Source: Rhodospirillaceae bacterium (lineage in GTDB: Bacteria > Pseudomonadota > Alphaproteobacteria > MPNO01 > UBA2964). From it: a stretch of DNA of 64,000 bases. Under the pieces are notes generated by a model. That model had not been told where the DNA came from. It made no database searches and worked only from the letters and a program-made list of their open reading frames with translations. Location of the stretch: the NCBI GenBank assembly GCA_002720855.1, contig PBIN01000004.1, positions 1-64,000 of the forward strand, in the 5' to 3' direction. The position numbers were made by a program, and so were the translations under genes. Within the stretch, counting starts at the first letter, position 1. Each line of letters starts with the position of its first letter. This document shows, piece after piece, positions 18,924-36,917 of this stretch.

Positions 18924-19158
18924 ATCCCATTCCTCAGGTCGCGGTTGTCGACTGCCGCGCTAAAAACTCTTCCCACCCCAGTTGCGTCGCATATTAAAAA
19001 AGCTAGCAGCTTTAGGCAATAGAATCGATTAACTAATATCGTTAAAAATATTTAAGAAATCTTTACAAATTAGATAGTTAGCAACAGAGGGATTGCGTCT
19101 CGACCGAGGGCTCCATAAATGTAAGAAACAATTCACTTTTTGGAAGCTTAGTCGGTTG

Positions 19159-19767
19159 ATGAAATTTTCAAAGATAGTAGCGGCCATTGTTATTGGTTTT
19201 TCCTTGAGCACGCCCGCTGTGGCGCAGGATCCCGGCACGCCTAAAGCCCTCGTAGAGTCATTCCATGTAAAATTACTGGAAACGATGAAGAGGGCTGAAC
19301 AACTTGGCATAAAAGGGCGATATAAATTTCTCGGCCCTTCGGTAAAGAAGACATTCGACTTCAAACTTATGATCGCACTTGCTACAGGCAAGCATTGGCG
19401 AAAAGCATCGGACCAGGCAAAGCAGCAACTTCAGGCAGCCTTTTCCCGGTTTAGCATTGCGACATATGCTGATCGATTTTCGGGTTATTCAGGGCAAACC
19501 TTTAAAACTATTTCGGCTTCGGATGGTCCGCGCAAAACCGTTTTGGTCAAAACGCAAATAACCCGCCCAAAAAAATCACCGGTCCCGCTGACTTACGTTA
19601 CGCGTAAGAGGGCCGGCCAATGGCGTATCGTTGATGTTCTGGTGGATGACGGAATTAGCGAATTGGCCACACGTCGTTCGGAATACCGCACCGTACTTAA
19701 AAAAAACGGCACTCAAGCCCTCGTTCGGCTCCTCAATAAAAAAACGGCGCGGCTTTTAAGTCGCTAG
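19159..19767 (+). CDS. hpnM: MlaC/Ttg2 family periplasmic protein, HpnM-like
   Basis: This 202-residue protein starts MKFSKIVAAIVIGFSLSTPAVAQ, a clear signal peptide; an in-frame TTG 22 codons upstream is not needed. The mature part follows the Ttg2D/MlaC fold with GRYKFLGPSVKKTFDFKLM, FSRFSIATYADRFSGYSG and RRSEYRTVLKKNG. MlaC proteins shuttle lipid across the periplasm, and the hopanoid-associated member is HpnM. Its position between mlaA and hpnL-hpnN, convergent with hpnL (four-base overlap), supports the HpnM name, but MlaC of a general Mla system cannot be excluded. Confidence 0.82.
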   Translation: MKFSKIVAAIVIGFSLSTPAVAQDPGTPKALVESFHVKLLETMKRAEQLGIKGRYKFLGPSVKKTFDFKLMIALATGKHWRKASDQAKQQLQAAFSRFSIATYADRFSGYSGQTFKTISASDGPRKTVLVKTQITRPKKSPVPLTYVTRKRAGQWRIVDVLVDDGISELATRRSEYRTVLKKNGTQALVRLLNKKTARLLSR

Positions 19768-20750
19768 ATCGACGATGATACCTTTTTTATTTTTGGTAGA
19801 ATCGTACTCAGTAAAAATCCGGCGCTGACCCAGACAATTTCGCGAATTCGGCGCACCAGCGCAGCCGCGAGACCCGAAGTTGGCGATCCCGTAAAAATTC
19901 CACACATTATCACGAAGATGCCTTCCTGGGCCCCGATACTCGCGGGAATAAAAAATGTACCGGATCTGATAAGTTGTGCAGCCGCCTCAATCACCCAGGC
20001 CTGCGACATGGAAACAGGGAAACCCAGCAAGTGAAGTGTCGCATAAATTTCGGCGACGCCAATACACCAGACGGCGAAGGCAACAAAAAGCGAACCCAGA
20101 AATTTTGCTCCGCTCCGGCCATAAAAATCTTTGAAATGGATTTCTACGTCGCTGATTTTCGCGGCAGCATTTTCAACCCATGGCCAACCTTTGGACTTAT
20201 TCAGGCTGGTTGCAAAGGCTGAAATCAATCCAAATCTTTGAACAGCAAAGAATGCGGTAATTGCAAAAACCAAAATCAATAACCCGATACCGGCGATACT
20301 GCGAAGGGATGGATCAACGGCGGCACTCAGGTGCATCAGACCAAAGCCGACAGAAAGAAAAGCAATAAGGGCAATCAGGTTTACAGTTTTGATCAGGATC
20401 AACGACGCTATTGCCGCATCGTAATCGATCCTGAAGTAGCGCTTTAAAAGAACCGCCTTTACCGGCTCACCCCCCATTCCTCCTGCCGGGAGAGTATAGT
20501 TGAATGCCTCACCGATCATTCTCACAAGCCAGAGCCGACAAAACCAAACGACGCCAACCGACGACCGCAGGGTCAGTTGCCACGCGAGGACATCGCCGAG
20601 AAAGGCAACAAAAAACAACCCAAGAATTATGCCTATTCCCCAGGACATTTTCGCGATCAGCTCAATGGCACCGCGTAGGTCAGTATTGATGACAATGGCC
20701 ACCAGAAGACTGACACCAATCAAAAGAAACGCGACTTTGAGAAATCTCAT
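19764..20750 (-). CDS. hpnL: hopanoid-associated membrane protein HpnL (LPG-synthase TM-domain-like)
   Basis: This 328-residue protein has about eight membrane helices. It carries the UPF0104/flippase-like signature NYTLPAGGMGGEPVKAVLLKR near residues 83-101 and AAQLIRSGTFFIPASIGAQEG near 255-275. The family is related to the membrane part of lysylphosphatidylglycerol synthase, and the HpnL subgroup is regularly found in hopanoid loci. The start overlaps the hpnN stop by four bases (ATGA), so the two are translationally coupled. A lipid-handling role is inferred. Confidence 0.85.
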   Translation of the reverse strand: MRFLKVAFLLIGVSLLVAIVINTDLRGAIELIAKMSWGIGIILGLFFVAFLGDVLAWQLTLRSSVGVVWFCRLWLVRMIGEAFNYTLPAGGMGGEPVKAVLLKRYFRIDYDAAIASLILIKTVNLIALIAFLSVGFGLMHLSAAVDPSLRSIAGIGLLILVFAITAFFAVQRFGLISAFATSLNKSKGWPWVENAAAKISDVEIHFKDFYGRSGAKFLGSLFVAFAVWCIGVAEIYATLHLLGFPVSMSQAWVIEAAAQLIRSGTFFIPASIGAQEGIFVIMCGIFTGSPTSGLAAALVRRIREIVWVSAGFLLSTILPKIKKVSSSI

Positions 20751-23347
20751 TTTTTATCGATGCGCGACGCCAGACAGGCCATCAACGCCGGCAAAAAATA
20801 AATTGTGCAGAGCAGTGTAAACCCGATGGATATCGCTAACAGGATGCCCATGCTTGCCGTTCCCGGGTGGCTTGAAAGAGCAATACTTGCAAACGATCCG
20901 ATTGTCGTAAGGGCGCTAAAAACAACTGCGCGCGGTGTACTGGTCCCCATCAACTCTCCTAGACCAGCCTCATCATGCGAACGCATTACGAAGTGAATTG
21001 CACTTGCTACGCCAAGACCAAACAGCAAGGGCAACACAATGACATTCGCGAAATTGAAAGGAAGGTCGAGGATAACCGTTGCAGCGATGGTAAAAATCGC
21101 CGCGAGTGTTAGCGGCGCAAATACAAGCAGAACGTCGCGGACGTCTCGCATCAAAACGATTACGAGAACAGCGATCGCGCAGACCGAAATCAGAGCCGCT
21201 TTTACAAACGCGTTGATCACCGCATTGCCAGCCTCAATGATAATTACGGGGGATCCAGTCGCCCGCGGCGCCACGGCTCGCACATCTGCTACAAAGCGAT
21301 CCAAATTACTTCGGTCACGAAGGTCGTCTTCTGGGAACACTTCAAGCCTTACAGCTCCCGAGCCAGATTCATAGCGCCGCTTCAATGCGCTCGGAATTGT
21401 ATCGACGGTGACCTCTGTTGCCTTCATGGCATCTTTCAAGGCAGTCAATCGGCCGTGCAAGCTGCCGATCAGATGCTTTTCTAGTTTGGCTAACCCGGAT
21501 TCTGATTTATCCGCTTTGGAAATGGCAATTCTCAGGTCATTTAAGGCTTGCGATAGCGCAGCCGGCCCTTGTTTTTTCAAATCACCAAGAAATTTCTCAA
21601 ATGCAATAATCGACTTTAGTCTTTCCGATGGGGTAGTCGGTCGTTTTCGTTGCGCTTCAAATCCTGGCAGCAGCAAAAATGCGATTTCCTCAATTATGGC
21701 AAGTTTGTCGCCTTGGTTTTTCGGAACGATGCGATCAAGGGACAGGACGTAGTCGACAGATTTAAGCTTTTCTAGACGAGAAATTAGGTCTTTGGCTGTT
21801 TTTAGGTTAGGTGCCAGAATGTCTATAGAATAAGGCCCTGTTTCACTTTCCGCCGTGAGGTCCAACAGCGTATCAACCGATTCAGTATTAGGATCGCGCA
21901 AATTCATCGGATCAAAATCAAAATGTATCATTGGCAAGGTAGCCGATGCTGCCAAAGCGAGAAGTAACGTAACCAAAACAACCGATCGCGCTTTTTTCGT
22001 AACCCATTGTGAGGATGTGCCGGTGATATCCGTTAGATTGACGGAGCCGCGTAGCGGCATAACGGTGATGAGGGCGGGCAAAACTGTCAGATTTGCGACC
22101 AAGGCAACAAACATGCCCATCCCGGCAATTATCCCTAACTCGGCAAGCCCGACATAATCTGTAAATACAAACGAAAAAAACGATATTGATGCGGCAACGG
22201 CACACAGGGTCAGCGCCCCACCGATGCTCTTGCCTGCAATTTGATTGCTGATGCTAGGGTCGTTGCCTGCAGTCAATCCCTCGCGAAAGCGAAGCGCAAA
22301 ATGAATACCAAAATCAACACTGAGACCGATGAAGAGAACGGCAAAGGCGACAGAGATCAAATTGAGCCGTCCGACAACAAATGTCGCCAATCCAGCCGTC
22401 CACAGCAATCCAACAACAAGCGTCAATAGCATCGCAAAAACCAACCGGCCCGAACGCAACCCCCAGCCCAGCAACCCGGACACCAGTAGCGCAGACAGAA
22501 TACCGGCAAGGCCCATTCCTTCCGCGACGCTTTCAAGTTCCTCCTCCTCCAAAACCGCAGACCCTGTAAGGCGAACCTTAAATCCATTGGCTGGTGTTAA
22601 ACCCAACTGCTCTGCCGTTTTTCGGATGGCGGAAATTGCCTCGCCCGCCGGCTGCAGCGACGCAGAATCCAGTGACGGTTGCACTATTAATATCCGTCGA
22701 TTTGGTGATTTCTGGTCGCTTTCGCTGCCATCGATCAGCGATTTCCAGGACAGCCGTTTAACCGACCCCGCGGTCGTCTCATTGATCGCAGCCGATATCT
22801 TTTCAAGGGTTGAAGATAAGGAACCCGGCGTTTGCGTATCCTCTGCATTCTCGATGGCAAGACGCAGTATCGAAAATAACCCGCGCAGCGAAGGATCTTG
22901 CCAAAGTTTGCCTAGAAATACTTGTGCAGACGCTAGCCGATCGGCAAGCGTTTCCAGTTCCGTAGTCTCCAGAAACAAAAGCCCGTTTTGCCGAAAAAAT
23001 GCGTCACCTCTCGGATCAAAAACCTCGTGAAAAGTTTTTGTTTGTTCCTTGAGACCGCGGCCGAGGGCGAGGGCACCGTCATCTACCTGATCCGGCGTCG
23101 CCCCGTCTATGACAACAACAATGTTGTTCGCAAACTGTGGAAAAGCACGTCTGAGCTGGATGGAATCCTGGCGAAAAGGTAGTTCCGCCGACAACATATC
23201 CGTTGTGTCGGTGTCGATGGACAAATTCGTTGCAACATACCAGGCGCTGCCAGCGGTCAGCAAAATCGAGAGACCGACAACGACCAGCGCGAAGCGACGA
23301 ACGCCATCAACCCAGTGGCCGATAAAATGTTTAAAGGCTTCCTCCAT
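20747..23347 (-). CDS. hpnN: RND/MMPL-family hopanoid transporter HpnN
   Basis: This 866-residue inner-membrane protein has two halves. Each half has a first helix, a large periplasmic domain and a block of five or six helices; SVAFAVLFIGLSVDFGIHFALRFREG and LPLLFGLGVASAIHFVMRSHDE (read as pieces) mark the two MMPL/SSD-like blocks. HpnN is known to carry hopanoids towards the outer membrane in Rhodopseudomonas and Burkholderia. It is followed by hpnL with a four-base overlap. It is preceded at 50 bp by a CDP-alcohol phosphotransferase gene, giving a three-gene minus-strand unit. Confidence 0.9.
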   Translation of the reverse strand: MEEAFKHFIGHWVDGVRRFALVVVGLSILLTAGSAWYVATNLSIDTDTTDMLSAELPFRQDSIQLRRAFPQFANNIVVVIDGATPDQVDDGALALGRGLKEQTKTFHEVFDPRGDAFFRQNGLLFLETTELETLADRLASAQVFLGKLWQDPSLRGLFSILRLAIENAEDTQTPGSLSSTLEKISAAINETTAGSVKRLSWKSLIDGSESDQKSPNRRILIVQPSLDSASLQPAGEAISAIRKTAEQLGLTPANGFKVRLTGSAVLEEEELESVAEGMGLAGILSALLVSGLLGWGLRSGRLVFAMLLTLVVGLLWTAGLATFVVGRLNLISVAFAVLFIGLSVDFGIHFALRFREGLTAGNDPSISNQIAGKSIGGALTLCAVAASISFFSFVFTDYVGLAELGIIAGMGMFVALVANLTVLPALITVMPLRGSVNLTDITGTSSQWVTKKARSVVLVTLLLALAASATLPMIHFDFDPMNLRDPNTESVDTLLDLTAESETGPYSIDILAPNLKTAKDLISRLEKLKSVDYVLSLDRIVPKNQGDKLAIIEEIAFLLLPGFEAQRKRPTTPSERLKSIIAFEKFLGDLKKQGPAALSQALNDLRIAISKADKSESGLAKLEKHLIGSLHGRLTALKDAMKATEVTVDTIPSALKRRYESGSGAVRLEVFPEDDLRDRSNLDRFVADVRAVAPRATGSPVIIIEAGNAVINAFVKAALISVCAIAVLVIVLMRDVRDVLLVFAPLTLAAIFTIAATVILDLPFNFANVIVLPLLFGLGVASAIHFVMRSHDEAGLGELMGTSTPRAVVFSALTTIGSFASIALSSHPGTASMGILLAISIGFTLLCTIYFLPALMACLASRIDKK

Positions 23348-23397
23348 TTCTCAGCCCGTGGGTTTCCCGTTATTCCTGTGCAGGTACAAAAATAACC

Positions 23398-24030
23398 TCA
23401 GCTAGCCGTTGGCGTCACGCGCCGCCTAATCCACCAGATCGCAAATACAGCGACCGCCGCTGACGCGCCGATGGCGGCGACGATCAATAGGGGTTCTGCC
23501 CACCCAAATGCCATTGCGATTGGGACGACAAACATACCGTCATCTGGATCGAATCCCCACTTACCGCCCAGATCCGCGCTACTGCGAACACCTGTAGAGT
23601 CCAACCGCATGACTAAAATTTCCGCAACCGCGACCAATACGCCGAAAATGAAACCCAACACAATCATCCAGCCAGAACTACCGGACAGCGACAAACCAAT
23701 CCCAATGCCGATAAATACTGCGGCATTTGATACACCGTCAGAAATCAGATCGTATATGTGACCACCTTTGCTCATTTTGCCGGAGAGCCGCGCGAGTTCC
23801 CCGTCCGCACGATCATGGCAAAGCGACACGACGAGGATTGCTGCCCCGGCGATTTGCCAAGCCATTTCTCCAGTCGCGAATGCCGTGGCTGCACCAAGAC
23901 CGGTTAAGAGCCGAAGTGTTGTGAGATGGTTGGGAACAACACGTGTATCTACAAGTGGACGAACCGCCCACCTTACTGATCGATGAACCCAGGTATTATG
24001 GCTTATGATGGCCTCCGAGTAGGTCGACAA
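23398..24030 (-). CDS. CDP-alcohol phosphotransferase
   Basis: This 210-residue membrane enzyme carries the complete family motif: D73, D76-G77, A80-R81, G90, D94 and D98 within CHDRADGELAR and GGHIYDLISD. Such enzymes displace CMP from a CDP-linked alcohol and transfer the head group to an acceptor alcohol. About six membrane helices are predicted. It heads a minus-strand unit with hpnN and hpnL and is divergent from the phosphonate transaminase gene (88 bp apart). A CDP-aminoethylphosphonate substrate is plausible because a PntC-like cytidylyltransferase is encoded at 28860-29606. The acceptor (diacylglycerol, a hopanoid polyol or another lipid) is unknown. Confidence 0.88.
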   Translation of the reverse strand: MSTYSEAIISHNTWVHRSVRWAVRPLVDTRVVPNHLTTLRLLTGLGAATAFATGEMAWQIAGAAILVVSLCHDRADGELARLSGKMSKGGHIYDLISDGVSNAAVFIGIGIGLSLSGSSGWMIVLGFIFGVLVAVAEILVMRLDSTGVRSSADLGGKWGFDPDDGMFVVPIAMAFGWAEPLLIVAAIGASAAVAVFAIWWIRRRVTPTAS

Positions 24031-24118
24031 TTATCGTATGCAACCATTACATTGGCAAAAATAATAGATGATTCAAGTAATTGGCCCATGGAATTGAAAG
24101 GCGGAGACATTTTACGTT

Positions 24119-25252
24119 ATGGCTGCTAACGAAACCCAAAAGCAAATTCTCCTGACGCCGGGGCCTCTAACAACGCTGCCTTCTGTTAAAGAAACCATGT
24201 TGCGGGACTGGGGGTCTCGTGATCAAGCTTTTATCGAGTTAACCGCACGCATTCGCGAAAAGCTTCTCGCAATTGCCGACGCGACCGAAAGCCATAGCTG
24301 TGTTCTCGTTCAAGGCAGCGGTACATTTGCGGTCGAAGCTACTCTGACAACATTACTGTCTCGCGAAGATCACCACGCACTTTTGTTGATTAACGGTGCT
24401 TATGGCAGACGCATTCAGCGAATCTGTGAAATTGCCGGGATCGAGTTCGACACTTATGAAACCCCAGAAAACTCACCACCAGATGCCAATCATGTCGCGG
24501 AATTGCTTCGCACAGACCCGAAAACTACGCACGTCGTTTTGGTTCACTGTGAAACAACATCTGGGATACTGAATCCTCTCGAAGAGATCGCTACTGTTGC
24601 TGCCAATGCTGGCAAAAAACTTATCGTCGATGCGATGAGTTCATTCGGTGCGCTGCCGGTCAATCTCTCGGAGATAGACGCGGAAGCGATTATCGCGTCC
24701 GCAAATAAATGTCTTGAAGGTGTCCCCGGACTTGGATTTGCACTGATTGAAAATACTGCGCTTCAAAAGTCAAAAGGGAATGCTTCGACACTGAGCCTCG
24801 ATCTCCACGATCAATGGGAATATATGGAGCGAACAGGACAATGGAGATTTACGCCCCCTACTCATGTCGTTGCAGCTTTCGAGCGTGCGATCAACGAACA
24901 TGAAAAAGAAGGCGGTGTCGCCGGGCGCGGCAGACGATACTCGGAGAATTGCAGCCGTCTGCTATCAGGGTTAAAGGCGCTGGGCTTCGAGACATTTCTA
25001 AGTGATAACCTGCAAGCCCCGATCATTGTCACTGTCCGCATGCCCGCCAGCGATATCTTCAACTTCGATAAGCTATATGCATTGATGAATGATCAGGGAA
25101 TCGTTCTTTACCCCGGCGCCGTGACAGAAGAGAAGAGCTTTCGGGTCGGATGTATAGGCCAGGTTGATGTTAAAGATATTGACCGGATGTTGAACGTATT
25201 GGAATCCGCACTTGATACGATGGGCGTCGCACCAGAAAATTTGGCGCCTTAA
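24119..25252 (+). CDS. phnW: 2-aminoethylphosphonate-pyruvate transaminase
   Basis: This 377-residue PLP enzyme of aminotransferase class V interconverts 2-aminoethylphosphonate plus pyruvate and phosphonoacetaldehyde plus alanine. It begins with the family LLTPGPLTTLPSVK. It contains VQGSGTFAVEA, the cofactor aspartate D171 (IVDAMSSFGALP) and the Schiff-base lysine K197 (SANKCLEGVPGLGF). Next to phosphonopyruvate decarboxylase it is likely to run in the biosynthetic direction, although the enzyme is best known from degradation. It is convergent with that gene, overlapping by four bases. Confidence 0.93.
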   Translation: MAANETQKQILLTPGPLTTLPSVKETMLRDWGSRDQAFIELTARIREKLLAIADATESHSCVLVQGSGTFAVEATLTTLLSREDHHALLLINGAYGRRIQRICEIAGIEFDTYETPENSPPDANHVAELLRTDPKTTHVVLVHCETTSGILNPLEEIATVAANAGKKLIVDAMSSFGALPVNLSEIDAEAIIASANKCLEGVPGLGFALIENTALQKSKGNASTLSLDLHDQWEYMERTGQWRFTPPTHVVAAFERAINEHEKEGGVAGRGRRYSENCSRLLSGLKALGFETFLSDNLQAPIIVTVRMPASDIFNFDKLYALMNDQGIVLYPGAVTEEKSFRVGCIGQVDVKDIDRMLNVLESALDTMGVAPENLAP

Positions 25253-26388
25253 TCTTCAGCCAAAAAAGCTTTAAAGCGCTGAGCAACTTCTGGTGGCGTA
25301 ATTTTTGGACGCCCAAGACCGTCGATGGTTCCGCGCGCCACTTTCATATGGATCAGATGCGGGCCTTCCTGCTCGAGCGATTTTTTGACCGCAGTCTCGA
25401 AACCATTCAAGTCATCGCTGGTAAATGCTGATGGATAGCCGCAGGCGAGCGCGGCAGCCGCGAAGTCGACAGTTGGAGAGACCGTTGGCTGACCACCTGT
25501 GGATTCATAGGCGCCATTGTCAAAAACGATGTGTATCAGGTTCTTTGGCGCATACGCCCCAACCGTACCAAGCGTGCCGAGCTTCATTAAAGCCGCGCCG
25601 TCACCATCCAGAACGATTACGGGCTTGTCACTATTGACGGCAACGCCCAACCCCATTCCAGCAGCACAGCCCATGGACCCGACCTGATAGAGATGTTGTT
25701 TACGATCCGAGACGGTAAATAGCTCGCGACCGGTAAAGCCCGTAGTCGCGATTAAGGCGGCATTATTAGGGACAAATTCAAGCAATCGTTCCATTGCCGA
25801 AACGCGCCCCGGTAAATCACCACTAATACTAAGGACAGAATGAATACCCTGGGTTGGCGGCTCAACAGGTTTCGTTTCAATTCCATCATCCCTTACTGCG
25901 CCTTTTTGCATAATCATCGCGTAGGGAAGATTGGAACTCCCAATTTTGGCGACCGCTTCCGCAATTGCGCCTGAAATTTCGTTATCTGAAGACGGAAAAT
26001 TGCCATAGGGCACCTGCATGACGTCCAGCATTGATGGGGTAATAGGACCCATAAGCTGATGCTGTGGTTCGTCTTCAATTCCGGGGCCACCACGCCAGGT
26101 GACAATTAATAGAGTGGGAATCTGAAAAGGGTGACTGAGTGACGTCAGCGGGTTGACGGCGTTTCCGAGACCAGAGTTTTGGCACATAACGACCGTACCC
26201 CGACCTGCAAGCCAAGCCCCTGCGGCGATCGCGACAGCTTCGCCTTCGCTTGCGGCACCAACGTAATCAAGGTCCTGATCGCTAATCACCCTATTGATGA
26301 TGGGCGTTAAGAAGGAACATGGAACCCCTGTATAAAAATCAAAACCGGCATCAACTGCTGAATTTAAAAAACTATCTGCTTCGATCAT
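25249..26388 (-). CDS. aepY: phosphonopyruvate decarboxylase
   Basis: This 379-residue thiamine-diphosphate enzyme converts phosphonopyruvate to phosphonoacetaldehyde, the step that drives phosphonate synthesis. The N-terminal half has FYTGVPCSFLTPIIN, the catalytic-type glutamate region GAASEGEAVAIAAG and CQNSGLGNAVNPLTSL. The C-terminal half has the ThDP motif DGDGAALMKLGTLG continuing to FDNGAYESTGGQPT. Unlike most genomes, no PEP mutase gene lies beside it. It is convergent with phnW. The next gene in the opposite direction is a PhyH dioxygenase starting 141 bp away. Confidence 0.92.
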   Translation of the reverse strand: MIEADSFLNSAVDAGFDFYTGVPCSFLTPIINRVISDQDLDYVGAASEGEAVAIAAGAWLAGRGTVVMCQNSGLGNAVNPLTSLSHPFQIPTLLIVTWRGGPGIEDEPQHQLMGPITPSMLDVMQVPYGNFPSSDNEISGAIAEAVAKIGSSNLPYAMIMQKGAVRDDGIETKPVEPPTQGIHSVLSISGDLPGRVSAMERLLEFVPNNAALIATTGFTGRELFTVSDRKQHLYQVGSMGCAAGMGLGVAVNSDKPVIVLDGDGAALMKLGTLGTVGAYAPKNLIHIVFDNGAYESTGGQPTVSPTVDFAAAALACGYPSAFTSDDLNGFETAVKKSLEQEGPHLIHMKVARGTIDGLGRPKITPPEVAQRFKAFLAED

Positions 26389-26529
26389 ATTCAGTACACC
26401 AAACCATCGCGCTAATGCGCGACCTTAACGAATATAATGACCGAAGAATACGCCGCCATTCGAATTACCGGGACTTGCAGCAGCTCATTTCATTACAATA
26501 ATAATAGCGAAGTGAAATACGAGTGGCGC

Positions 26530-27285
26530 ATGATAAAGACACCGATATTATCCGATAGTCAGATCGCCGAATTCCAACGCGACGGGTATGTCGTATGTCG
26601 AGGGGCCTTTAATACTGAAGAGACAGATACGATAACAACTTGGGCCACCGAAGTTGAGGAACTTCCCGAATTGCCGGGAAAGCAATGGGTTTTTCATGAA
26701 GAGAGCGCGCTGGATGGCAGCGACTTGATAAATCGCATTGAATATATTTCTCCATTTCACTCTGGGTTTGCATCGCTGACAGAAAACTTGAGACATGCGG
26801 CGGGCCAATTGCTTGGTGATGACGCCGTCTTATTCAAGGAGAAAATTAATTTCAAAATGCCGGGGGGTGGCGGCTTCGAACCGCATCAGGATTCTCAGGC
26901 CGGTTGGGAGGTGTATGCGAGCAATTTCATCACCGCCATGATTTGCATCGATGAGGCAACAGTCGAAAATGGCTGTCTGGAAATAGCCGCTGGTGAGAAT
27001 AAACGCGGCCTTATCCGTGGAATGGAACCACTCACCGCAAACGATACCAGCGACATGAATTTCATTGCAGTGCCAACGCGCCCCGGAGACATGGTGCTCT
27101 TCGATGCCTACACGCCGCATCGATCAGCCCCTAACCCGACGACAGAACAACGCCGCGTTTATTACGCGACCTATAACAGGGCATCAGAAGGCGACCATAT
27201 CGAACGGTATTACGCCGACAAACGTAAGAACTTTCCGCCTGACATCGAACGCGACCCTGATCGCGAATACGTATACAAAGTTTAG
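26530..27285 (+). CDS. phytanoyl-CoA dioxygenase family Fe(II)/2-oxoglutarate oxygenase
   Basis: This 251-residue protein starts MIKTPILSDSQIAEFQRDGYV, the usual PhyH opening; the open frame extends 31 codons upstream but that part is not family-like. The iron triad is H119-x-D121 (FEPHQDSQAGW) and H197, with arginines R208/R209 to hold 2-oxoglutarate. PhyH-family members PhnY and PhnY* hydroxylate 2-aminoethylphosphonate, so a similar reaction would fit this context. No PhnZ-type HD oxygenase is nearby, which argues against the known degradative pair. The substrate is not determined. Confidence 0.85.
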   Translation: MIKTPILSDSQIAEFQRDGYVVCRGAFNTEETDTITTWATEVEELPELPGKQWVFHEESALDGSDLINRIEYISPFHSGFASLTENLRHAAGQLLGDDAVLFKEKINFKMPGGGGFEPHQDSQAGWEVYASNFITAMICIDEATVENGCLEIAAGENKRGLIRGMEPLTANDTSDMNFIAVPTRPGDMVLFDAYTPHRSAPNPTTEQRRVYYATYNRASEGDHIERYYADKRKNFPPDIERDPDREYVYKV

Positions 27286-27322
27286 AAAACTTACCTCCTG
27301 CCCACATTCAGAGAAAAACAAT

Positions 27323-28849
27323 ATGCAAAACCAAACCGGGCGTCCTCTAACCTGTCTGTCAGGCGGGCAAATCCTAACATTTGATGGTTCTGACCGGGTA
27401 TTAGATCCCGGTGAAATGTGGATTGATGGCGATCAAATCATAGCGGTGGGTGCGCCGGGCAGGTTTAATCCGCCGACAGACAGACCCGTATCAAGAATGG
27501 ATACAACGGGTCGCATAATTTGCCCTGGATTTGTCAACGCACACACGCATTCATACAGCGCAATTTTGAAGGGTACGGTCGAAAAAAATCCACTCGACAT
27601 CTATATGCTCAGTGTCATTGCAGCCGGCACGGCAATGTCACCACGCGAAACCTACATTAGTGCCAAGCTCGATGCGCTTTCGATGTTGCGGGTCGGCGTT
27701 ACGTCGCTGATCGATCATTACACCGAACGGCCGGCTCTCACGACGGAAGCTCTGAACGCCGTATGCGAAGGCTTCACCGATATCGGCATTCGCGCGACGG
27801 TCGCCACAATGTTTTCTGACAAACCCTATATAGAGTCAGTGCCGATTAGTCGCGATGCATTGCCACAAGAAGTTCTCGAACGCTATGACGCCCAGCAAAG
27901 ACCCGATGCCACGAGCTATTTTGAGGTGATGAAAAACGCTTTAGATGATTGGGGAAACGAAGGCGAACGTGTTCATGTCATTTTGGGTGTTGATGGCCCG
28001 CAAAGGTGCTCTGACGCGCTAATCGACATGACAGGAGATTTCCAGAGAAACCATAACTTGGGCCTTCACACCCATATGCTGGAAACCAAGACACAGGCGG
28101 TCATGCGCGATCCCAAGCGTGGAAGCTTTATCCAGCGCATGCTGGATCTGGGCAGCCTCAATGAGAGGAGCTCTCTCGTACATTTTATTTGGGGACAGGA
28201 TGACGACATCGCCGCTGCAAAAGAAGCTGGTGTAACAATTGTGCATTGCCCGCAATCCAATACCATGCTGGGCGCCGGGATTTGCCCGGTGCTGCGGCTT
28301 CGAAAGGAAGGTATTCCGGTTGCCTACGGAACGGACGGCTCAAATTGCGGCCCCGCAAGTTATCTTGAAACCTTGCGCCTTGGAGCCCACCTGATGCGGC
28401 TGACGGATCCCGATTTTGAGGAATGGCCCGATGGCTCGATTATCTTAAAAGAAGCCTTTCAGAATGGTGCCCGTGCAATGGGAAATGCTGGAAAGTTTGG
28501 GACGCTGGAACCAGGCATGAAAGCTGATTTCGTGGTGATGAAACCAGTGGATCACTGGCATCGGCCAATGGGAGACCCAATGCTCCACTTGTTCTATTAC
28601 GAAACGGGAGAGTCCATCCAAGATGTTTGGGTAAATGGAGTGCAGGTCGTAAAAGAAGGAGAGATGACGACGGTCAACGAAGATGATCTGATAGCGGAAG
28701 CTGAAGAAATTGTTGCCCACAGAAAAGAGGCTTTACCTGCGGATGTTGTTGACATCGTGGCGGCACAATATCCAGCTTTTCGCAATATGATTATCGATAC
28801 TTTGAATTCGAAAGAGATGGCGATTGAGCGGCGCGTAAACCTGCGTTAG
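27323..28849 (+). CDS. amidohydrolase family metal-dependent deaminase/hydrolase
   Basis: This 508-residue protein starts MQNQTGRPLTCLSGGQILTF. It has the H74-T-H76 metal motif (FVNAHTHSYSAILKG), a second-site HTHMLETKTQA segment, VHCPQSNTMLGAG and the catalytic-aspartate region YGTDGSNCGPASYLETLR. This is the TrzA/ATZ and S-adenosylhomocysteine/guanine-deaminase-like subtype. Similar proteins act on heterocyclic amines or amides, so the natural substrate cannot be deduced. It starts 37 bp after the PhyH dioxygenase in the same direction, so the two are probably co-transcribed. It is convergent with the cytidylyltransferase gene. Confidence 0.87.
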   Translation: MQNQTGRPLTCLSGGQILTFDGSDRVLDPGEMWIDGDQIIAVGAPGRFNPPTDRPVSRMDTTGRIICPGFVNAHTHSYSAILKGTVEKNPLDIYMLSVIAAGTAMSPRETYISAKLDALSMLRVGVTSLIDHYTERPALTTEALNAVCEGFTDIGIRATVATMFSDKPYIESVPISRDALPQEVLERYDAQQRPDATSYFEVMKNALDDWGNEGERVHVILGVDGPQRCSDALIDMTGDFQRNHNLGLHTHMLETKTQAVMRDPKRGSFIQRMLDLGSLNERSSLVHFIWGQDDDIAAAKEAGVTIVHCPQSNTMLGAGICPVLRLRKEGIPVAYGTDGSNCGPASYLETLRLGAHLMRLTDPDFEEWPDGSIILKEAFQNGARAMGNAGKFGTLEPGMKADFVVMKPVDHWHRPMGDPMLHLFYYETGESIQDVWVNGVQVVKEGEMTTVNEDDLIAEAEEIVAHRKEALPADVVDIVAAQYPAFRNMIIDTLNSKEMAIERRVNLR

Positions 28850-28859
28850 CGGTGCGCCG

Positions 28860-29606
28860 TCAGCGTTTGATCGCTGGCAAAATTTCGTCCTCAGCACGGA
28901 CGATATCTTCGGGGAAATCAATTTCGATCCACGGCAAACCGGTGATGTCGACACCGGTCGCTGGACCACCATCACTATTTAGCAAAAGGTCGCGGACGGC
29001 ATCTTCATAGGGCGCCGATACGTCACCACCATCCGCATAATCAGCCGACCTATCTGCAAGTTCGGCGGCGAATTCTCCGGTCATTTTTATGAACCCAACC
29101 CATTCACCGATAGTATCGTACGAAACATCATCTGGAATTTTTCGAAATTCGACCGGCTTGCCCGCCATCGTCATGAACTTTACCGGTTCGTCTCCGGCTT
29201 CAAAATCGCGATCATAGGGAAAGGTTGTTACGCCCTCAGGTTCAACCATCCGCTCCAGAATTTCCGTGTCGTAAAGAACGTCAGCATCCATGGAAAGAAC
29301 ATCTTCACCTGAACACAACAATTCTCGCGCCGTCCACATTGATACAACGCTGCCCTCTCGATATCTCGGGTTTCGATAATATTTTACGATGTCCGCCATC
29401 TTAACTGCGTCGATTTCAGCTCGAATTTCTTCTTCGTGATAACCAACAACAATGCCGATTTCCTGAACCCCCATCGATGATAAATTCTCAACATGACGCG
29501 CCATAAGACTCTTGCCCGCAAAGCGAAGCAACGATTTCGGGCTTGCCTGGCCGTCACCACCGAACAACCGATTTCCGACGCCAGCGGCAAGAATTAACGC
29601 CTTCAC
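28860..29606 (-). CDS. PntC-like CTP:phosphonoalkyl (or phosphocholine) cytidylyltransferase
   Basis: This 248-residue nucleotidyltransferase opens with MKALILAAGVGNRLFGG and SPKSLLRFAGKSLMARH, the sugar-nucleotidyltransferase signature with its PK lysine. It has a metal-binding D-A-D (VLSMDADVLYDTEIL) and ends GLPWIEIDFPEDIVRAEDEIL. That end resembles LicC-type and PntC proteins, which activate phosphocholine or 2-aminoethylphosphonate as CDP derivatives. With phnW, phosphonopyruvate decarboxylase and a CDP-alcohol phosphotransferase nearby, PntC is the better fit. It lies 24 bp downstream of hpnA, so the two are likely one operon. Activation of a sugar phosphate remains possible. Confidence 0.8.
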   Translation of the reverse strand: MKALILAAGVGNRLFGGDGQASPKSLLRFAGKSLMARHVENLSSMGVQEIGIVVGYHEEEIRAEIDAVKMADIVKYYRNPRYREGSVVSMWTARELLCSGEDVLSMDADVLYDTEILERMVEPEGVTTFPYDRDFEAGDEPVKFMTMAGKPVEFRKIPDDVSYDTIGEWVGFIKMTGEFAAELADRSADYADGGDVSAPYEDAVRDLLLNSDGGPATGVDITGLPWIEIDFPEDIVRAEDEILPAIKR

Positions 29607-29630
29607 CTGTCACTCTCCCAAGAGTTTAGT

Positions 29631-30623
29631 TCAGTCCAGATAGCCATTTTCACGAAACCATTGAACGGCATCGGCAAATGCTTCTTTTACTGGACGGGAC
29701 TTATACCCAAGCTCGCGCTGCGCTTTGGCGGAACTGAAATACATCTTCTTTCGAGCCATCCTCACCTCATCGACAGCAACGAGTGGCTTCTCGCCACCAA
29801 CAATCCGCGTAAGGGTTTCGGCTATATACGCGATCGGCATAACAACGCCATGCGGAATACTGATGCTTGGCGGTTTGCGTCCAACCAGTTCAGAAATCTG
29901 TCCGATGATCGTTGCCAGAGATAGATTCTCACCGCCGAGAATATAGCGCTCACCGATTTTTCCTTTTTGCCAGGCCAAAATATGTCCGTCGGCAACATCA
30001 TCAACGTGAACCACGTTGAGCCCTGTATCCACAAACGCGGGCATACGACCAGCAGCTGCGTCCGCTATCAACTCACCCGTCCGTGTCGGTTTTATATCTC
30101 GAGGGCCGACCGGTGCAGAGGGGTTTACGATCACCACCGGGGCATTTTTTTCGGCAACCAGTGTGTGAACCGCCTCTTCAGCAAGAAATTTCGACCGCTT
30201 ATAGACCCCGATCATGTCATCAAGCGTCGAGGGCGTCGTCTCATCCGCCGGCGTCTCGTCTTTATTGATCCCAAGGGCCGCAACGCTCGAGGTATAGACA
30301 ATGCGATCCACATCTGCGTCTAACCCGGCTTCAATCAACGCCTTGGATCCGTCGATATTTGTCCGCATCATTTCTTCGGGATGGCGGGTCCACAGGCGAT
30401 AGTCGGCTGCGATATGAAAAATCGCAGTGCAACCTGAAACCGCTGCGTTTAACGATTGCGGTTCTGTCAAATCACCTACGCACACCTCGACATCGAGGCC
30501 ATCAATATTGCGTCGGTCGCTGGTGGGTCGGGCAAGAACTCTGACCGTTTCCCCTTTCGCAATGAGTTGCCGGGCAACTGCCGATCCGACAAAGCCAGTG
30601 GCGCCTGTTACAAGTACCGTCAT
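29631..30623 (-). CDS. hpnA: hopanoid-associated sugar epimerase/dihydroflavonol-reductase-like HpnA
   Basis: This 330-residue extended short-chain dehydrogenase has the TGATGFVGSAVARQL NAD-binding motif at residues 6-20, the YTSSVAALG serine region and the catalytic YKRSK (about residues 145-149). HpnA homologues are regular members of hopanoid loci; the precise reaction is not settled. The start is divergent from hpnH across 181 bp. The gene is followed at 24 bp by the PntC-like cytidylyltransferase, an unusual partner. Confidence 0.9.
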   Translation of the reverse strand: MTVLVTGATGFVGSAVARQLIAKGETVRVLARPTSDRRNIDGLDVEVCVGDLTEPQSLNAAVSGCTAIFHIAADYRLWTRHPEEMMRTNIDGSKALIEAGLDADVDRIVYTSSVAALGINKDETPADETTPSTLDDMIGVYKRSKFLAEEAVHTLVAEKNAPVVIVNPSAPVGPRDIKPTRTGELIADAAAGRMPAFVDTGLNVVHVDDVADGHILAWQKGKIGERYILGGENLSLATIIGQISELVGRKPPSISIPHGVVMPIAYIAETLTRIVGGEKPLVAVDEVRMARKKMYFSSAKAQRELGYKSRPVKEAFADAVQWFRENGYLD

Positions 30624-30804
30624 GGAGGAAAGGATAAGGTTATAGGAACGATGGCGCTACCGACTCCTTACTAAATGACATTTCAGGGGTTTCCTTTGAT
30701 GCAACAACTGCTTACATCTTTCAAATATATAGAATAAATTAGGGCGATTCTTGCCGACTGGTTGCGAACCGACTAGTTTGGCAACTTCAAACTGAGAGGA
30801 CATT

Positions 30805-31941
30805 GTGGGCGTACCCCTGATCCAACAATTTCGCGTCGGCAGCTATATTATGCGCCAGCGAATCTCCCGTAATGACAAGTATCCACTCGTCCTAATGCTC
30901 GAACCCTTGTTTCGCTGTAATCTCGCCTGTGTTGGCTGCGGCAAAATCGACTATGAGAACCATATATTGAACAAGCGCCTGTCTGTAGAAGACTGTTTTC
31001 AGGCTGTCGACGAATGTGGGGCACCCATTGTTTCGATACCCGGTGGTGAACCGCTATTGCACAAAGATATTAAAGAGATTGTCGAGGGTATCGTTGCTCG
31101 TAAAAAATTCGTTTATCTCTGCACGAATGCTTTACTTCTCGAAAAACGCCTCGAACGTTTCGAACCAACGCCCTATTTGACGTTCTCTGTTCATTTAGAC
31201 GGGTTGCGTGAGCACCATGATCACGCCGTCAACCAACCAGGCACTTTCGATCGCGCCGTATCTGCGATTAGAGCGGCAAAAGCGCGTGGCTTTCGTGTCA
31301 ACGTCAATTGCACCCTGTTTGACCAAATGTCAGCGCCGGAAGCAGCCAAATTTTTTGACTTTTGTATGGACTATTTAGAGGTCGAAGGGATTACGCTTTC
31401 CCCGGGTTACGCCTATGAACGCGCACCCGACCAGGAGCACTTTCTAAACCGTAGAAAGACCAAAGAACTATTTCGCGACATCTTTCGTATCGGGTCCCTT
31501 AAACGCTGGCGCTTTAGTCAGTCGACGTTGTTCATGGACTTTTTAGCCGGCAATCAGGAATACCATTGTACGCCCTGGGGAAACCCGACGCGCAATATAT
31601 TTGGCTGGCAAAAGCCTTGCTATCTATTGGCAGAAGGCTACACACAGAGTTTTAAAGCTTTGATGGAAGAGACCGATTGGGACGCCTACGGTACTGGAAA
31701 GTACGAAAAATGCGCCAATTGCATGGTTCATTGCGGTTATGAAGCGACGGCAGTTGCCGATACCGTCGCCCACCCTATCAAGGCGCTCAAAACCTTCCTC
31801 GGCGGGATAGAAACCGAAAAGCCGATGGCACCCGAAATCAGTCTCGAAGAACAGCGACCTGCTCAATTTGTTTTTGAAGATGTCGTAAAGACGATGTCAG
31901 AGCGCGCTGCGGAAGCTGAGGAGCGGAGCAATGCGGCGTAG
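30805..31941 (+). CDS. hpnH: adenosylhopane synthase, radical SAM protein HpnH
   Basis: This 378-residue enzyme adds a 5'-deoxyadenosyl group to diploptene, the first step of hopanoid side-chain extension. The N-terminus (MGVPLIQQFRVGSYIMRQRI) and the radical SAM motif C38-x3-C42-x2-C45 (FRCNLACVGCGKIDYEN) are characteristic, followed by SIPGGEPLLHKDI. The start codon is GTG at 30805, supported by AGAGGA seven bases upstream. The 3' end overlaps the convergent hpnG by 45 bp. It is probably read from the divergent promoter region shared with hpnA. Confidence 0.95.
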   Translation: MGVPLIQQFRVGSYIMRQRISRNDKYPLVLMLEPLFRCNLACVGCGKIDYENHILNKRLSVEDCFQAVDECGAPIVSIPGGEPLLHKDIKEIVEGIVARKKFVYLCTNALLLEKRLERFEPTPYLTFSVHLDGLREHHDHAVNQPGTFDRAVSAIRAAKARGFRVNVNCTLFDQMSAPEAAKFFDFCMDYLEVEGITLSPGYAYERAPDQEHFLNRRKTKELFRDIFRIGSLKRWRFSQSTLFMDFLAGNQEYHCTPWGNPTRNIFGWQKPCYLLAEGYTQSFKALMEETDWDAYGTGKYEKCANCMVHCGYEATAVADTVAHPIKALKTFLGGIETEKPMAPEISLEEQRPAQFVFEDVVKTMSERAAEAEERSNAA

Positions 31942-32583
31942 GGTCTCAAACCCAGCACCGCTCAATCGACGCATCCTCATCAAACCTGAAATATCCGAAG
32001 GCTTTTTTGCCAGTGCCATCAACAGGGAACCGTAATTGACGGCACCGTCCGGCAGAAGAGCATATGCGGCTGCATGAGGCACTTCGTCATTTGCCGTGTC
32101 TGCAACCACCCGCAGCCCTAAAAACGGAATATTCTTGATCGACGCCTCACGGATGACAGCGTGGCTTTCCATATCAACACACATTGCCTTCGTTCCCTGA
32201 AATAGGTCCTTTTTAGTTTCAGCCGAATAGGCAATCTCGTTCAGCCCCAAAATTGCGCCCGTTTTAAAGGAAACTTCATTTTCCTCGAAAACCTCGCCAA
32301 TATATTCGCGCCAGTATTTATCTGTTTGAACCTTTGTACCGTCTGGTCCAATAACGGTATCCGCTACAATCAATGATCCGGCTTCCAGCGAGGGATCTAA
32401 CCCTCCCGCGAGCCCAAAACTAACCAATCCTTCACAACCAGCCGCAATACTCGTTCTTGCTACTTCGCCTGCGCGATCCGAAGAGGCTCCCGAACATCTG
32501 ATGTCTAGTTCTGATGAAAAATCAGCTTGTCGAAGGCATTTAGCCTCGAGGTGACTGCCGGTGATGATGCCTAACCGGGCCAA
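31897..32583 (-). CDS. hpnG: hopanoid-associated nucleosidase/phosphorylase HpnG
   Basis: This 228-residue protein of the MTA/SAH nucleosidase-like fold begins MARLGIITGSHLEAKCL. It has VSFGLAGGLDPSLEAGSLIVADTVI (in pieces), a substrate-methionine region AMCVDMESHAVIREA and LRVVADTANDEVPHAA. HpnG removes adenine from adenosylhopane after HpnH. Translation appears to start with TTG directly after the shc stop (TGA-TTG), indicating tight coupling. The last 45 bp overlap the hpnH 3' end on the other strand. Confidence 0.92.
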   Translation of the reverse strand: MARLGIITGSHLEAKCLRQADFSSELDIRCSGASSDRAGEVARTSIAAGCEGLVSFGLAGGLDPSLEAGSLIVADTVIGPDGTKVQTDKYWREYIGEVFEENEVSFKTGAILGLNEIAYSAETKKDLFQGTKAMCVDMESHAVIREASIKNIPFLGLRVVADTANDEVPHAAAYALLPDGAVNYGSLLMALAKKPSDISGLMRMRRLSGAGFETLRRIAPLLSFRSAL

Positions 32584-34539
32584 TCACAAACCAAATGCAG
32601 GATATTGTGTATTGGAAGATTTTAGGTTGCGGTACCGTGCCAACGCCCAAAGCGGAAAATAAGCACTGTATCCGTGATAAAGCAGATAAAATACGCGGGG
32701 GAATCCTACGGCATTATAAAGTTCTTCGTGCCATTTTCCGTCGTCACGCGGTGCAGAAAGCAACCACTCGACCCCACGCTGTACCTCTTCTGTATCAACC
32801 TCTCCCGCAGCCATCAGGGCGAGCAAAGCCCAGGCTGTTTGAGAAGGCGTTGATTCAATCTGTTTTGTCTCGCGATCGGGCCAATAGCTTGAGCAATCTT
32901 CGCCCCAGCCACCGTCGTCATTTTGCTTGGAACGCAGCCAATTTACCGCCTTTCGGATATGCGGTGCATTCATATCCTCACCTGCAGCATTAAATGCGCA
33001 AAGTGCTGACCACGTACCATAAATATAATTGGTACCCCAGCGCCCGAACCAGGAACCATCGGTTTCTTGTTCTTTCCGGAGATATTCGAGCCCTCGGTCC
33101 ATAACAGGATGGGCACGATCATATCCAAGTTGCGCCAACATCGAGATGCACCTTGCACTAACATCCGAGGTTGCGGGATCAAGAAGCGCACCATGATCAG
33201 CAAACGGTATATGTTCCAGCCAGTAATATTCATTGTCGGCGTCAAACGCACCCCAGCCACCACGGGAGCCCTGCATGCCGACGACCCATTCCGCGGCCCG
33301 GGCAACGGATTCTCTTAATTCAAGATTTCCTGTTCGGTCCAATGCCGTTACCACGGCGGCGGTATCGTCAACATCAGGGTAGTAATCATTGCGGTATTGA
33401 AAGGCCCAGCCACCAGGACGGACGTTCTTTCGGTTTATCGACCAATCCCCTTTTACATCGAGAATTTGGCATTCGGTCAGCCACTTGCTGGCGCGTGTAA
33501 TAACGGGATCATCGCCGGGATGACCGGCCTCCAGGAGTGCATGTGCAGCGAGCGCAGTATCCCAAACAGGTGAAAGGCACGGCTGGCAATATGCGATGTC
33601 ATCGCCCTCTTCGACCAAAAGTTTTTCAATGGCCTTCCGCGCCGTCACGTACGTTGGGTCGCTTTTGGAATATCCAAGCGCATCAAATACCATCAACGTA
33701 TTGGCCATGGCCGGAAAGATACCGCCGAGGCCGTCCTCGCCGTTAAGTCTTTCCATGATAAAATCCATGGCTTTGTCGATCGCGCGTTGCTGAGCGAACT
33801 TAGGCATATAGGGAACGATGTGACGGGCAATTTTGTCCATCCACAACATAACCTCACCGAGCCAGTGACCCGTAGGATTTTGAAGCCAGTTTTTTTCTTC
33901 ATCTGGGGGCGTGACGAATAACTCAGAAACGCCGATGCCAAGCGGATTGGATGCTTTAGGTTTGAGGGCCTGCAGAACAAGAAGTGGAACCATGACGGTT
34001 CTCGACCAGTAAGAGACCTTGTCCATGACGCTTAACGGTGTACGTCTAGGCGCGAGCAACACTTCGACACGGATCAGCGGGCAAGCCGTCCAGGGCACCT
34101 GTTCAAACAGTGCGAGTGAAATTCGGGTAAAGACGTTACAACGCGCCGCGCCACCATTTGCCAAAATGGCTTCCCTCGCACGGACCATATGTGGTGAGTC
34201 GATATCGTCGCCAACCAGCTTTAATGCATAGTAGGCTTTCACGCTGGCACTCATATCGAGATCGCCGCCGTGATACAGCGGCCAGCCACCGTGGTCGCCT
34301 TGAATCTTCCGTAAATAATTGGCGAGCTTCGCTTCGGTTTTACGATCTATTTCGTCAACATAGTGATTGAGGAGAATATACTCCGCGGGAATTGTCGCGT
34401 CGGCTTCAAGATCGTAGACCCAGTGCCCGTCGGGAGCTTGCTGTTCGGCGATCGCCGCAGCGACCTCCTCTATCGTCGAATCAAGTAGTGCATTTTCGGA
34501 AGACGCGACCCCTGATTCTGAAAAAACTGATCTCAACAT
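32584..34539 (-). CDS. shc: squalene-hopene cyclase
   Basis: This 651-residue cyclase folds squalene into hopene at the inner membrane. The catalytic DxDDTA motif is D389-V-D391-D392-T393-A394 (YYPDVDDTAAV). Several QW repeats are visible, such as QQAPDGHWVYDLEAD near the N-terminus, QGSRGGWGAFDAD, QETDGSWFGRWG and QNDDGGWGEDCSSYW. The length is typical. hpnG follows without a gap, and hpnD lies 204 bp upstream in the same direction, leaving space for a separate promoter. Confidence 0.98.
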   Translation of the reverse strand: MLRSVFSESGVASSENALLDSTIEEVAAAIAEQQAPDGHWVYDLEADATIPAEYILLNHYVDEIDRKTEAKLANYLRKIQGDHGGWPLYHGGDLDMSASVKAYYALKLVGDDIDSPHMVRAREAILANGGAARCNVFTRISLALFEQVPWTACPLIRVEVLLAPRRTPLSVMDKVSYWSRTVMVPLLVLQALKPKASNPLGIGVSELFVTPPDEEKNWLQNPTGHWLGEVMLWMDKIARHIVPYMPKFAQQRAIDKAMDFIMERLNGEDGLGGIFPAMANTLMVFDALGYSKSDPTYVTARKAIEKLLVEEGDDIAYCQPCLSPVWDTALAAHALLEAGHPGDDPVITRASKWLTECQILDVKGDWSINRKNVRPGGWAFQYRNDYYPDVDDTAAVVTALDRTGNLELRESVARAAEWVVGMQGSRGGWGAFDADNEYYWLEHIPFADHGALLDPATSDVSARCISMLAQLGYDRAHPVMDRGLEYLRKEQETDGSWFGRWGTNYIYGTWSALCAFNAAGEDMNAPHIRKAVNWLRSKQNDDGGWGEDCSSYWPDRETKQIESTPSQTAWALLALMAAGEVDTEEVQRGVEWLLSAPRDDGKWHEELYNAVGFPRVFYLLYHGYSAYFPLWALARYRNLKSSNTQYPAFGL

Positions 34540-35586: not shown

Positions 35587-35648
35587 TGCGATAGCAGCAT
35601 AAAACACATCCCGGCTTAAGGCCACGCGCCCTTCAATCATGAAAAAAT

Positions 35649-36794: not shown

Positions 36795-36917
36795 ACATCG
36801 TCGATACCGCTTTTGTTCCATGTTGCCAATATCAATATACCCGCTGGGGCCGGCTACCATTGACGGCTGGCAATGATACGCTAAAACCCTGTCTCCAAAC
36901 CGTGTTAGGAGAAAATA

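Follow-up and report, generated by a model that had tools for sequence, protein, structure and literature searches.

Genes predicted to make, activate and transfer 2-aminoethylphosphonate (AEP) are interleaved with hopanoid genes at positions 23398-30623 of a 64,000-nt stretch of Rhodospirillaceae bacterium DNA (contig PBIN01000004.1; the whole stretch is hereafter the window), an arrangement that points to a membrane lipid of a kind not yet described, possibly a phosphonate-headed hopanoid. The link between the phosphonate and hopanoid genes is strong: the proteins belong to the relevant families and carry their motifs, the same genome encodes a phosphoenolpyruvate (PEP) mutase, linkage and co-occurrence are found in relatives, and one relative has lost several of the phosphonate genes together. 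The reactions, their order and the acceptor are what we infer. Transfer of AEP to some membrane lipid tied to hopanoids appears likely from the gene content; that the acceptor is itself a hopanoid, which would make this a phosphonolipid branch of hopanoid metabolism, is a nearly even call.

All genes named in a preliminary description of the locus were found in place by family profiles (10 window proteins scanned with Pfam and 18 with NCBIfam, bit scores being compared with curated cut-offs), together with genes it had not listed: a PhyH-type oxygenase nearest to the PhnY model, an amidohydrolase and hpnM. From left to right, the locus and its flanks read:

17979-18923, minus strand: MlaA/VacJ-type lipoprotein of a lipid-trafficking group (mlaA-like; PF04333, 225 bits)
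19093-19767, plus strand: hpnM, MlaC-like hopanoid trafficking (TIGR03481, 196.4 bits, cut-off 160.1; PF05494)
19764-20750, minus strand: hpnL-like flippase-domain membrane protein (TIGR03476, 154.4 bits, under the cut-off of 195.65; PF03706)
20747-23347, minus strand: hpnN, RND hopanoid transporter (TIGR03480, 976 bits, cut-off 751.85)
23398-24030, minus strand: cytidine diphosphate (CDP)-alcohol phosphotransferase, start codon uncertain (PF01066, 52.1 bits, cut-off 22; motif DRADGELARLSGKMSKGGHIYDLISD)
24119-25252, plus strand: AEP transaminase (TIGR02326, 465.3 bits, cut-off 400.8; TIGR03301, 464 bits; PDB 7e7g)
25249-26388, minus strand: phosphonopyruvate decarboxylase (PPD; TIGR03297, 438.6 bits, cut-off 312.5)
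26437-27285, plus strand: PhyH-type Fe(II)/2-oxoglutarate oxygenase, possible AEP 1-hydroxylase (PF05721; PhnY-like NF052437, 181 bits, far below the cut-off of 500)
27065-28849, plus strand: amidohydrolase-family protein, probable passenger (PF01979)
28860-29606, minus strand: stand-alone PntC/LicC-like cytidylyltransferase (PF12804, 47.4 bits, cut-off 27; GxGxR...PK intact)
29631-30623, minus strand: hpnA (TIGR03466, 499.9 bits, cut-off 368)
30805-31941, plus strand: hpnH, adenosylhopane synthesis (TIGR03470, 561 bits, cut-off 225)
31897-32583, minus strand: hpnG, adenosylhopane phosphorylase (TIGR03468, 179.3 bits, just under the cut-off of 187.1)
32584-34539, minus strand: shc, squalene-hopene cyclase (TIGR01507, 775 bits, cut-off 431)
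34744-35640, minus strand: hpnD (TIGR03465, 329 bits, cut-off 279)
35649-36944, minus strand: hpnB (TIGR03469, 513 bits, cut-off 379)

The stretch is thus a hopanoid locus, with shc, hpnD, hpnH, hpnA, hpnB and hpnN above their cut-offs and hpnG and hpnL slightly below, and both PPD and the transaminase exceed theirs. The phosphotransferase, hpnN and hpnL genes are co-directional, separated by a 50-bp gap and then a 4-nt overlap, and at the other end the cytidylyltransferase gene lies downstream of hpnA on the same strand after 24 bp. Given the shared strands and the short gaps or overlap, each end of the locus probably has phosphonate and hopanoid genes on a common transcript. A promoter and terminator scan of positions 19500-31000 gave no signal (7 promoter-like sequences against 11.7 in shuffled DNA; 15 terminator-like against 14.5). 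The amidohydrolase open reading frame overlaps the PhyH gene at its start, its true start probably lying downstream; we rejected it as a core part, the gene being full-length in 2 of the 13 relatives' loci compared (L059 and L100, from genomes G017 and G013).

In the pathway that we propose, PepM, the PEP mutase encoded elsewhere in the genome with a fused nucleotidyltransferase domain, would make AEP with PPD and the transaminase, and the PhyH protein may hydroxylate AEP at carbon 1. The stand-alone cytidylyltransferase would form CMP-AEP from AEP and cytidine triphosphate (CTP), from which the membrane CDP-alcohol phosphotransferase would move AEP onto the hydroxyl of a membrane lipid, and HpnL, HpnN, HpnM and MlaA would carry either the AEP lipid or the hopanoid that accompanies it in the direction of the outer membrane. 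The lipid most likely to accept AEP would be a bacteriohopanepolyol produced by Shc, HpnH and HpnG, perhaps bacteriohopanetetrol, giving a phosphonate-headed hopanoid. The preliminary description had held that these genes could make, activate and transfer AEP to a lipid; the genes of such a route are present (pepM at another site of the genome), their association with hopanoid genes is conserved, and the transfer step is a prediction from them.

No pepM lies in the 64,000-nt window. A search of the whole genome (3.58 Mb in 15 contigs, 98% complete) returned one protein over the PEP mutase cut-off (G000:C15:539790; TIGR02320, 384.4 bits against 319.55), which carries the PEP mutase motif EDKX5NS as EDKLFPKTNS and is fused to a PF12804 nucleotidyltransferase domain. 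It is encoded on another contig than shc, and in the single-contig genus-mate G017 PPD and pepM lie 0.96 Mb apart, at 1.68 and 2.65 Mb; linkage of pepM to shc does exist among relatives, for example in G053, G209 and Roseomonas marmotae. In a quickly built tree of PepM, the family's copies fall in an eight-row group with copies still inside hopanoid loci (SH-aLRT support of 88, below the firm level of 95), and because of this grouping we consider that pepM probably moved out of the hopanoid locus in the lineage of the window. The present surroundings of pepM (L015:3975-18038) encode a carbamoyltransferase, a heparinase II/III-like protein, a UDP-sugar dehydrogenase, an adenosine 5'-phosphosulfate (APS) kinase, a pyruvate kinase-ATP sulfurylase fusion and a sulfatase.

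The arrangement is found again in relatives and is therefore not due to chance. Scanning 84,980 species genomes for close relatives of PPD yielded 25 loci, and 16 of the 18 titled Alphaproteobacteria, Rhodospirillales, Rhodospirillaceae, Proteobacteria or Caenispirillum hold hopanoid genes, the exceptions being L034, without any, and L030, with just an HpnL-like protein (30%) and the rest of the module. The other seven (Streptomyces, Spirochaetales, Planctomycetota, Deltaproteobacteria) have no hopanoid genes except a 25% HpnN-like match in L039. In a second set, 53 PPD places besides that of the window were taken from a class sample (E ≤ 1e-70) and an order sample (over the cut-off) and seven hopanoid genes were sought around them; the two sets share some contigs, so that their counts overlap. 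At least one of the seven genes was found at 29 of the 53 places, and at 15 of the 24 that are well flanked, i.e. with 6 kb on both sides of PPD (9 of 17 families). Among 40 genomes with both PPD and shc, the two lie on one contig in 15 (matched by eye), at most 14.6 kb apart in 14 of these. Gene orders and strands differ from family to family where linkage is kept. Certain adjacencies are frequent: hpnM and pepM are immediate neighbours, co-directional and no more than 300 bp apart, in 16 of the 24 genomes whose stretch contains both (8 families); the phosphotransferase is beside hpnN in 11/21 genomes (3 families) and the cytidylyltransferase beside hpnA in 9/18 (3 families). pepM, PPD, transaminase, cytidylyltransferase and phosphotransferase occur together in Roseomonas marmotae, beside shc-hpnG-hpnH, and in Mycetohabitans rhizoxinica, near an MMPL transporter; in the latter, a true HpnL (329.8 bits) is encoded between oxygenase and cytidylyltransferase. 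In an all-against-all clustering of the frames of 57 loci and a window slice we recognised no further core family, many unlabelled groups being taken as antisense frames. The search for the same interleaving and for pepM in related genomes, put forward in the preliminary description, supports its proposal in part, and the independence of phosphonate from hopanoid genes in all relatives that would have spoken against it is not what the relatives display.

Co-occurrence was counted in the class sample of 385 genomes, including that of the window, of which 46 have PPD, 45 pepM and 103 shc. PPD is accompanied by shc in 40 of its 46 genomes (odds ratio 29) and pepM in 42 of its 45 (odds ratio 64), and the phosphonate-degradation control PhnX, present in 38 genomes, in 15 (odds ratio 1.9, p 0.08). 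Every pepM genome with a fusion-length frame (at least 550 amino acids) has shc (39/39). Three pepM genomes lack shc; their PepM frames, of 438-452 amino acids, fall apart from the rest on the PepM tree. In the order sample of 27 genomes, all 12 with PPD over the cut-off also have pepM and hpnN; hpnN occurs without such a PPD in six genomes, in four of which (G003-G006) the hpnN stretches contain neither cytidylyltransferase nor phosphotransferase, and pepM does so in two, which are 69% and 72% complete.

The two enzymes proposed to activate and transfer AEP were compared between genomes with and without shc. Within 10 kb of pepM, short contigs included, in 60 pepM genomes searched for shc (45 positive, 15 negative; the count excludes eight order-mates in which shc was not searched, G001, G009, G015, G016, G018, G019, G021 and G022), the cytidylyltransferase was found in 23/45 shc-positive versus 0/15 shc-negative genomes and the phosphotransferase in 21/45 versus 1/15; with 6 kb on both sides these figures become 15/23 versus 0/11 and 11/23 versus 0/11, respectively. 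Across 72,556 plasmid records, the window phosphotransferase matches 15 and pepM at ≥60% identity matches 15, with identical accessions, and the phosphotransferase has no match in 60 other pepM plasmid records (among the 45 listed, mostly rhizobial or agrobacterial) or in the 8 hpnJ plasmid records outside the 15. A hopanoid acceptor best accounts for this dependence of the phosphotransferase on shc.

CDP-alcohol phosphotransferases share the motif D-x2-DG-x2-AR-x8-G-x3-D-x3-D, and the window protein carries it complete, together with PF01066, which places it in the family. Its annotated TTG start (24019-24030) is doubtful because four relatives have a TGA three codons later; the true start probably lies further downstream and may be a rare start codon. 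We dropped the view of this early stop as damage in G013, since G015, G016 and G017 share it and have PPD over the cut-off. In L071 (11667-14960) the phosphotransferase and HpnN form one uninterrupted frame of 1,097 amino acids; this is one draft genome, so an erroneous loss of the stop is possible. Among NCBIfam models, those of CDP-lipid enzymes (archaetidylinositol phosphate synthase, PIPS) come nearest, with every score well below its cut-off; the weak PDB matches include PIPS structures. A second type of phosphotransferase, ~30-37% identical to that of the window, occurs in the relatives' loci L032, L027, L055, L063, L064, L068 and L073, and the eight copies displayed have another residue in place of the motif's final Asp.

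A further tie to hopanoid head groups lies in the same genome as the window, where hpnL-hpnI-hpnJ-hpnK are flanked by two CDP-alcohol phosphotransferases (G000:C1:42000-61999; L142:4769-10779); the second shares its first 4 nt with the 3' end of hpnK, and the hpnL is a true one. An HpnL match likewise lies between two CDP-alcohol phosphotransferases in G013, G016 and G017. The module as a replacement for hpnI, and hence for its head group, was rejected: hpnI is over the cut-off in 5 of the 27 order genomes, namely that of the window, the module carriers G015, G016 and G018, and G013.

The best solved relatives of the stand-alone cytidylyltransferase, all weak (E 5e-6 to 1e-4), are inositol-1-P cytidylyltransferase (IPCT; 2xme/4mnd), LicC (1jyk) and PntC-AEPT (6pd1). 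The GxG(T/S)R...PK signature is present as GVGNR...PK, and its Arg is kept in 37 of the 38 loci with a cytidylyltransferase match of at least 100 bits (best per locus), L095 being unreadable and L089, one of the 37, having HK instead of PK. In the PepM-fused domain, the GxGxR signature is absent from 58 of 62 readable rows, which mostly have an AASRG-type sequence instead whether shc-positive or not (e.g. L015:10616-11386), and the four that keep the Arg are distant (26-35% identity). The R15A substitution lowers the activity of PntC to <10% (Rice et al, 2019, PMC6697681, as far as consulted). Because the signature Arg is kept in the stand-alone enzyme and mostly lost from the fused domain, and its replacement cripples PntC, we propose that the stand-alone enzyme, rather than the fused domain, would activate AEP. 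A fused domain broken only in hopanoid makers was rejected, as the shc-negative G642 and G503 have the same variant.

A natural loss is seen in G013, of the same genus and 98% complete, whose locus (L100; G013:C17:148000-167999) keeps its hopanoid genes. PPD is reduced to a stub of 29 amino acids (a weak match, E 0.002), the transaminase to one of 40, and PhyH is frameshifted; the frameshift stands because PhyH is a single frame in 12 other loci (from 10 genomes, as L017 and L094 represent one contig and L023 and L070 another). Even though this genus has its pepM away from the locus, G013 yielded no pepM at E 1e-60 either.

Several observations weigh against a hopanoid-specific pathway. Among 319 genomes of the phylum, fusion-length PepM (541-586 amino acids) occurs without detected shc in G642, G503, G509 (82% complete) and G556 (65%); the pepM loci of these four contain no stand-alone cytidylyltransferase at 100 bits, no phosphotransferase and no HpnL. 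G330, without detected shc, has a phosphotransferase near pepM. In nine of the 24 well-flanked loci none of the seven hopanoid genes is present in a 17-20 kb stretch, shc being elsewhere in seven of these genomes and not detected in G341 and G345, and in G040 shc is 2.06 Mb away from PPD. The state of shc changes only four times on the PepM tree, which offers 2 to 4 independent pairs, so that significance is unattainable and a phylogenetic sign test was dropped for too few events; because of these few changes the genome counts are not independent, and they represent an association, not independent replication. On this tree G001, G009, G019, G022 and four plasmid records were labelled shc-positive without a search, labels that agree with shc being annotated for Roseomonas and with Shc in the loci of G001 and G009. 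In the window cytidylyltransferase an Asp aligns with the AEP-contacting Glu104 of Tde-PntC, as in LicC, and the sequence therefore does not fix its substrate specificity; the Glu196 region is unreliably aligned. Matches to this enzyme occur in 132 plasmid records, many of Rhizobium or Sinorhizobium, which makes it no hopanoid marker alone, and Rhizobium rhizogenes pC5.7d (L046) has a 43% relative with PPD, transaminase, PhyH and LicD and no hopanoid gene in an 18.7-kb stretch. These rhizobial enzymes leave our estimate unchanged because it rests on the phosphotransferase and the hpn neighbours. Finally, despite the loss of pepM, PPD and transaminase, the cytidylyltransferase frame of G013 is open and its phosphotransferase not demonstrably broken; as these frames persist, either the loss is recent or the two enzymes serve another use.

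A serious rival, possible though on the doubtful side, is that diacylglycerol or ceramide receives the AEP. The product would then be a glycero- or sphingophosphonolipid of ordinary type, either simply co-regulated with hopanoids or dependent on the same HpnN, HpnM and MlaA transport route. The known phosphonolipids are of these kinds, with AEP on glycerol or ceramide, the MlaA/MlaC-type genes of the locus are related to phospholipid-trafficking proteins, the modules L066, L076 and L091 have none of the seven hopanoid genes nearby, and hopanoid genes persist without the complete module in G013. A plain glycerolipid route would not, however, be expected to require shc, and just G330 in the 60-genome sample has a phosphotransferase near pepM without detected shc; moreover, the phosphotransferase abuts hpnN in about half of the genomes compared, L071 has the two in a single frame, and hpnIJK are accompanied by a related phosphotransferase. 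It is improbable, in our estimate, that the phosphotransferase instead joins a CDP-diacylglycerol donor to a hopanoid polyol, giving a phosphatidyl-hopanoid, with AEP synthesis a separate neighbour. The CDP-lipid enzymes among its nearest models, far under cut-off, and the PIPS structures among its weak matches would fit this, as would the phosphotransferases retained in G013 after the loss of AEP synthesis, but in plasmid records the phosphotransferase tracks close relatives of pepM and not hpnJ alone, a cytidylyltransferase of the class that forms CDP-head-group donors often accompanies it at its locus, and the IPCT-DIPPS pair, in which the CDP-head group is the donor, also matches both proteins.

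That AEP decorates a surface glycan, the hopanoid neighbourhood being incidental, is quite improbable. Glycans are frequent AEP targets in the part of the literature consulted (Rice et al, 2019, PMC6697681), the unlinked pepM has UDP-sugar dehydrogenase, heparinase-like, carbamoyltransferase and sulfate-activation genes around it, and a related cytidylyltransferase stands beside LicD in R. rhizogenes pC5.7d; yet no LicD is found among the window proteins scanned, the transferase is of the integral-membrane CDP-alcohol family, and the tie to hpnM, hpnN and hpnA is recurrent. Clustering inherited by chance, with no functional link, would account for close relatives through common ancestry and agrees with the few independent events on the PepM tree. 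We hold it to be very improbable, as gene orders and strands vary between families that keep the linkage, similar partners occur in Acetobacteraceae and Burkholderiaceae, and G013 has lost its unlinked pepM along with the PPD embedded in the locus.

Returning to the phosphonate-headed hopanoid, a broader version of it would make AEP- and hydroxy-AEP-bacteriohopanepolyols, perhaps also with AEP attached to the HpnI-HpnJ-HpnK product, a glucosamine or cyclitol head, widespread lipids of Alphaproteobacteria and Burkholderiaceae, formed by a dedicated CMP-AEP:hopanoid phosphonotransferase and moved by HpnL, HpnM and HpnN; we advance it tentatively, as somewhat short of even. Hopanoids are the bacterial surrogates of sterols and the source of the geological hopane record, and their polar heads govern extractability and membrane behaviour. 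If the proposal is right, a zwitterionic, hydrolysis-resistant head with a C-P bond would define a new lipid class, could account for part of the environmental aminophosphonate and would identify what HpnL, HpnM and HpnN transport.

Beyond hpnB, the window encodes an adjoining 1,210-amino-acid hydantoinase/oxoprolinase-type protein (36918-40550) that both caprolactamase-subunit models match under cut-off; its relatives, 73-93% identical, adjoin hopanoid genes within the same family.

The novelty claimed in the preliminary description has to be narrowed: the linkage of shc to pepM in some Roseomonas, and the suggestion of an undiscovered terpene-phosphonate, are already in print (Guzman & Vilcinskas, 2021, PMC8776678), the only report of a hopanoid-phosphonate gene link found in a search that lay outside subscription journals and preprints. 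That hybrid cluster was found with antiSMASH in one family, whereas in the window genome pepM lies outside the cluster, and the portions of the report consulted name no cytidylyltransferase, no CDP-alcohol phosphotransferase, no tie to hpnN, hpnM or hpnIJK and no spread beyond Acetobacteraceae. The Pnt pathways resemble the window route in having Ppm, Ppd, AEPT and activation by CTP, and Ppm fused to a PF12804 domain as well as clusters with fused plus separate nucleotidyltransferases are described in the parts consulted (Rice et al, 2019, PMC6697681); the words "hopan" and "squalene" are absent from that text, as is any word beginning "hopan" from Acker et al (2022, PMC8931226). Unlike the Pnt neighbourhoods there, which have LicD-like or glycosyl transferases, the window has, next to hopanoid genes, a transferase of the membrane-bound CDP-alcohol family. 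A formal parallel is the IPCT-DIPPS system, in that a cytidylyltransferase is paired with a CDP-alcohol phosphotransferase and both window proteins match it weakly. IPCT and DIPPS (the CDP-inositol phosphotransferase) are fused and use inositol substrates in archaeal and thermophile routes, unlike the window enzymes, whose similarity is weak only. The products of hpnI-hpnJ-hpnK are, to our knowledge, sugar or cyclitol derivatives without C-P bonds; these genes, which provide polar heads on bacteriohopanetetrol, stand in the window genome with a true hpnL and CDP-alcohol phosphotransferases.

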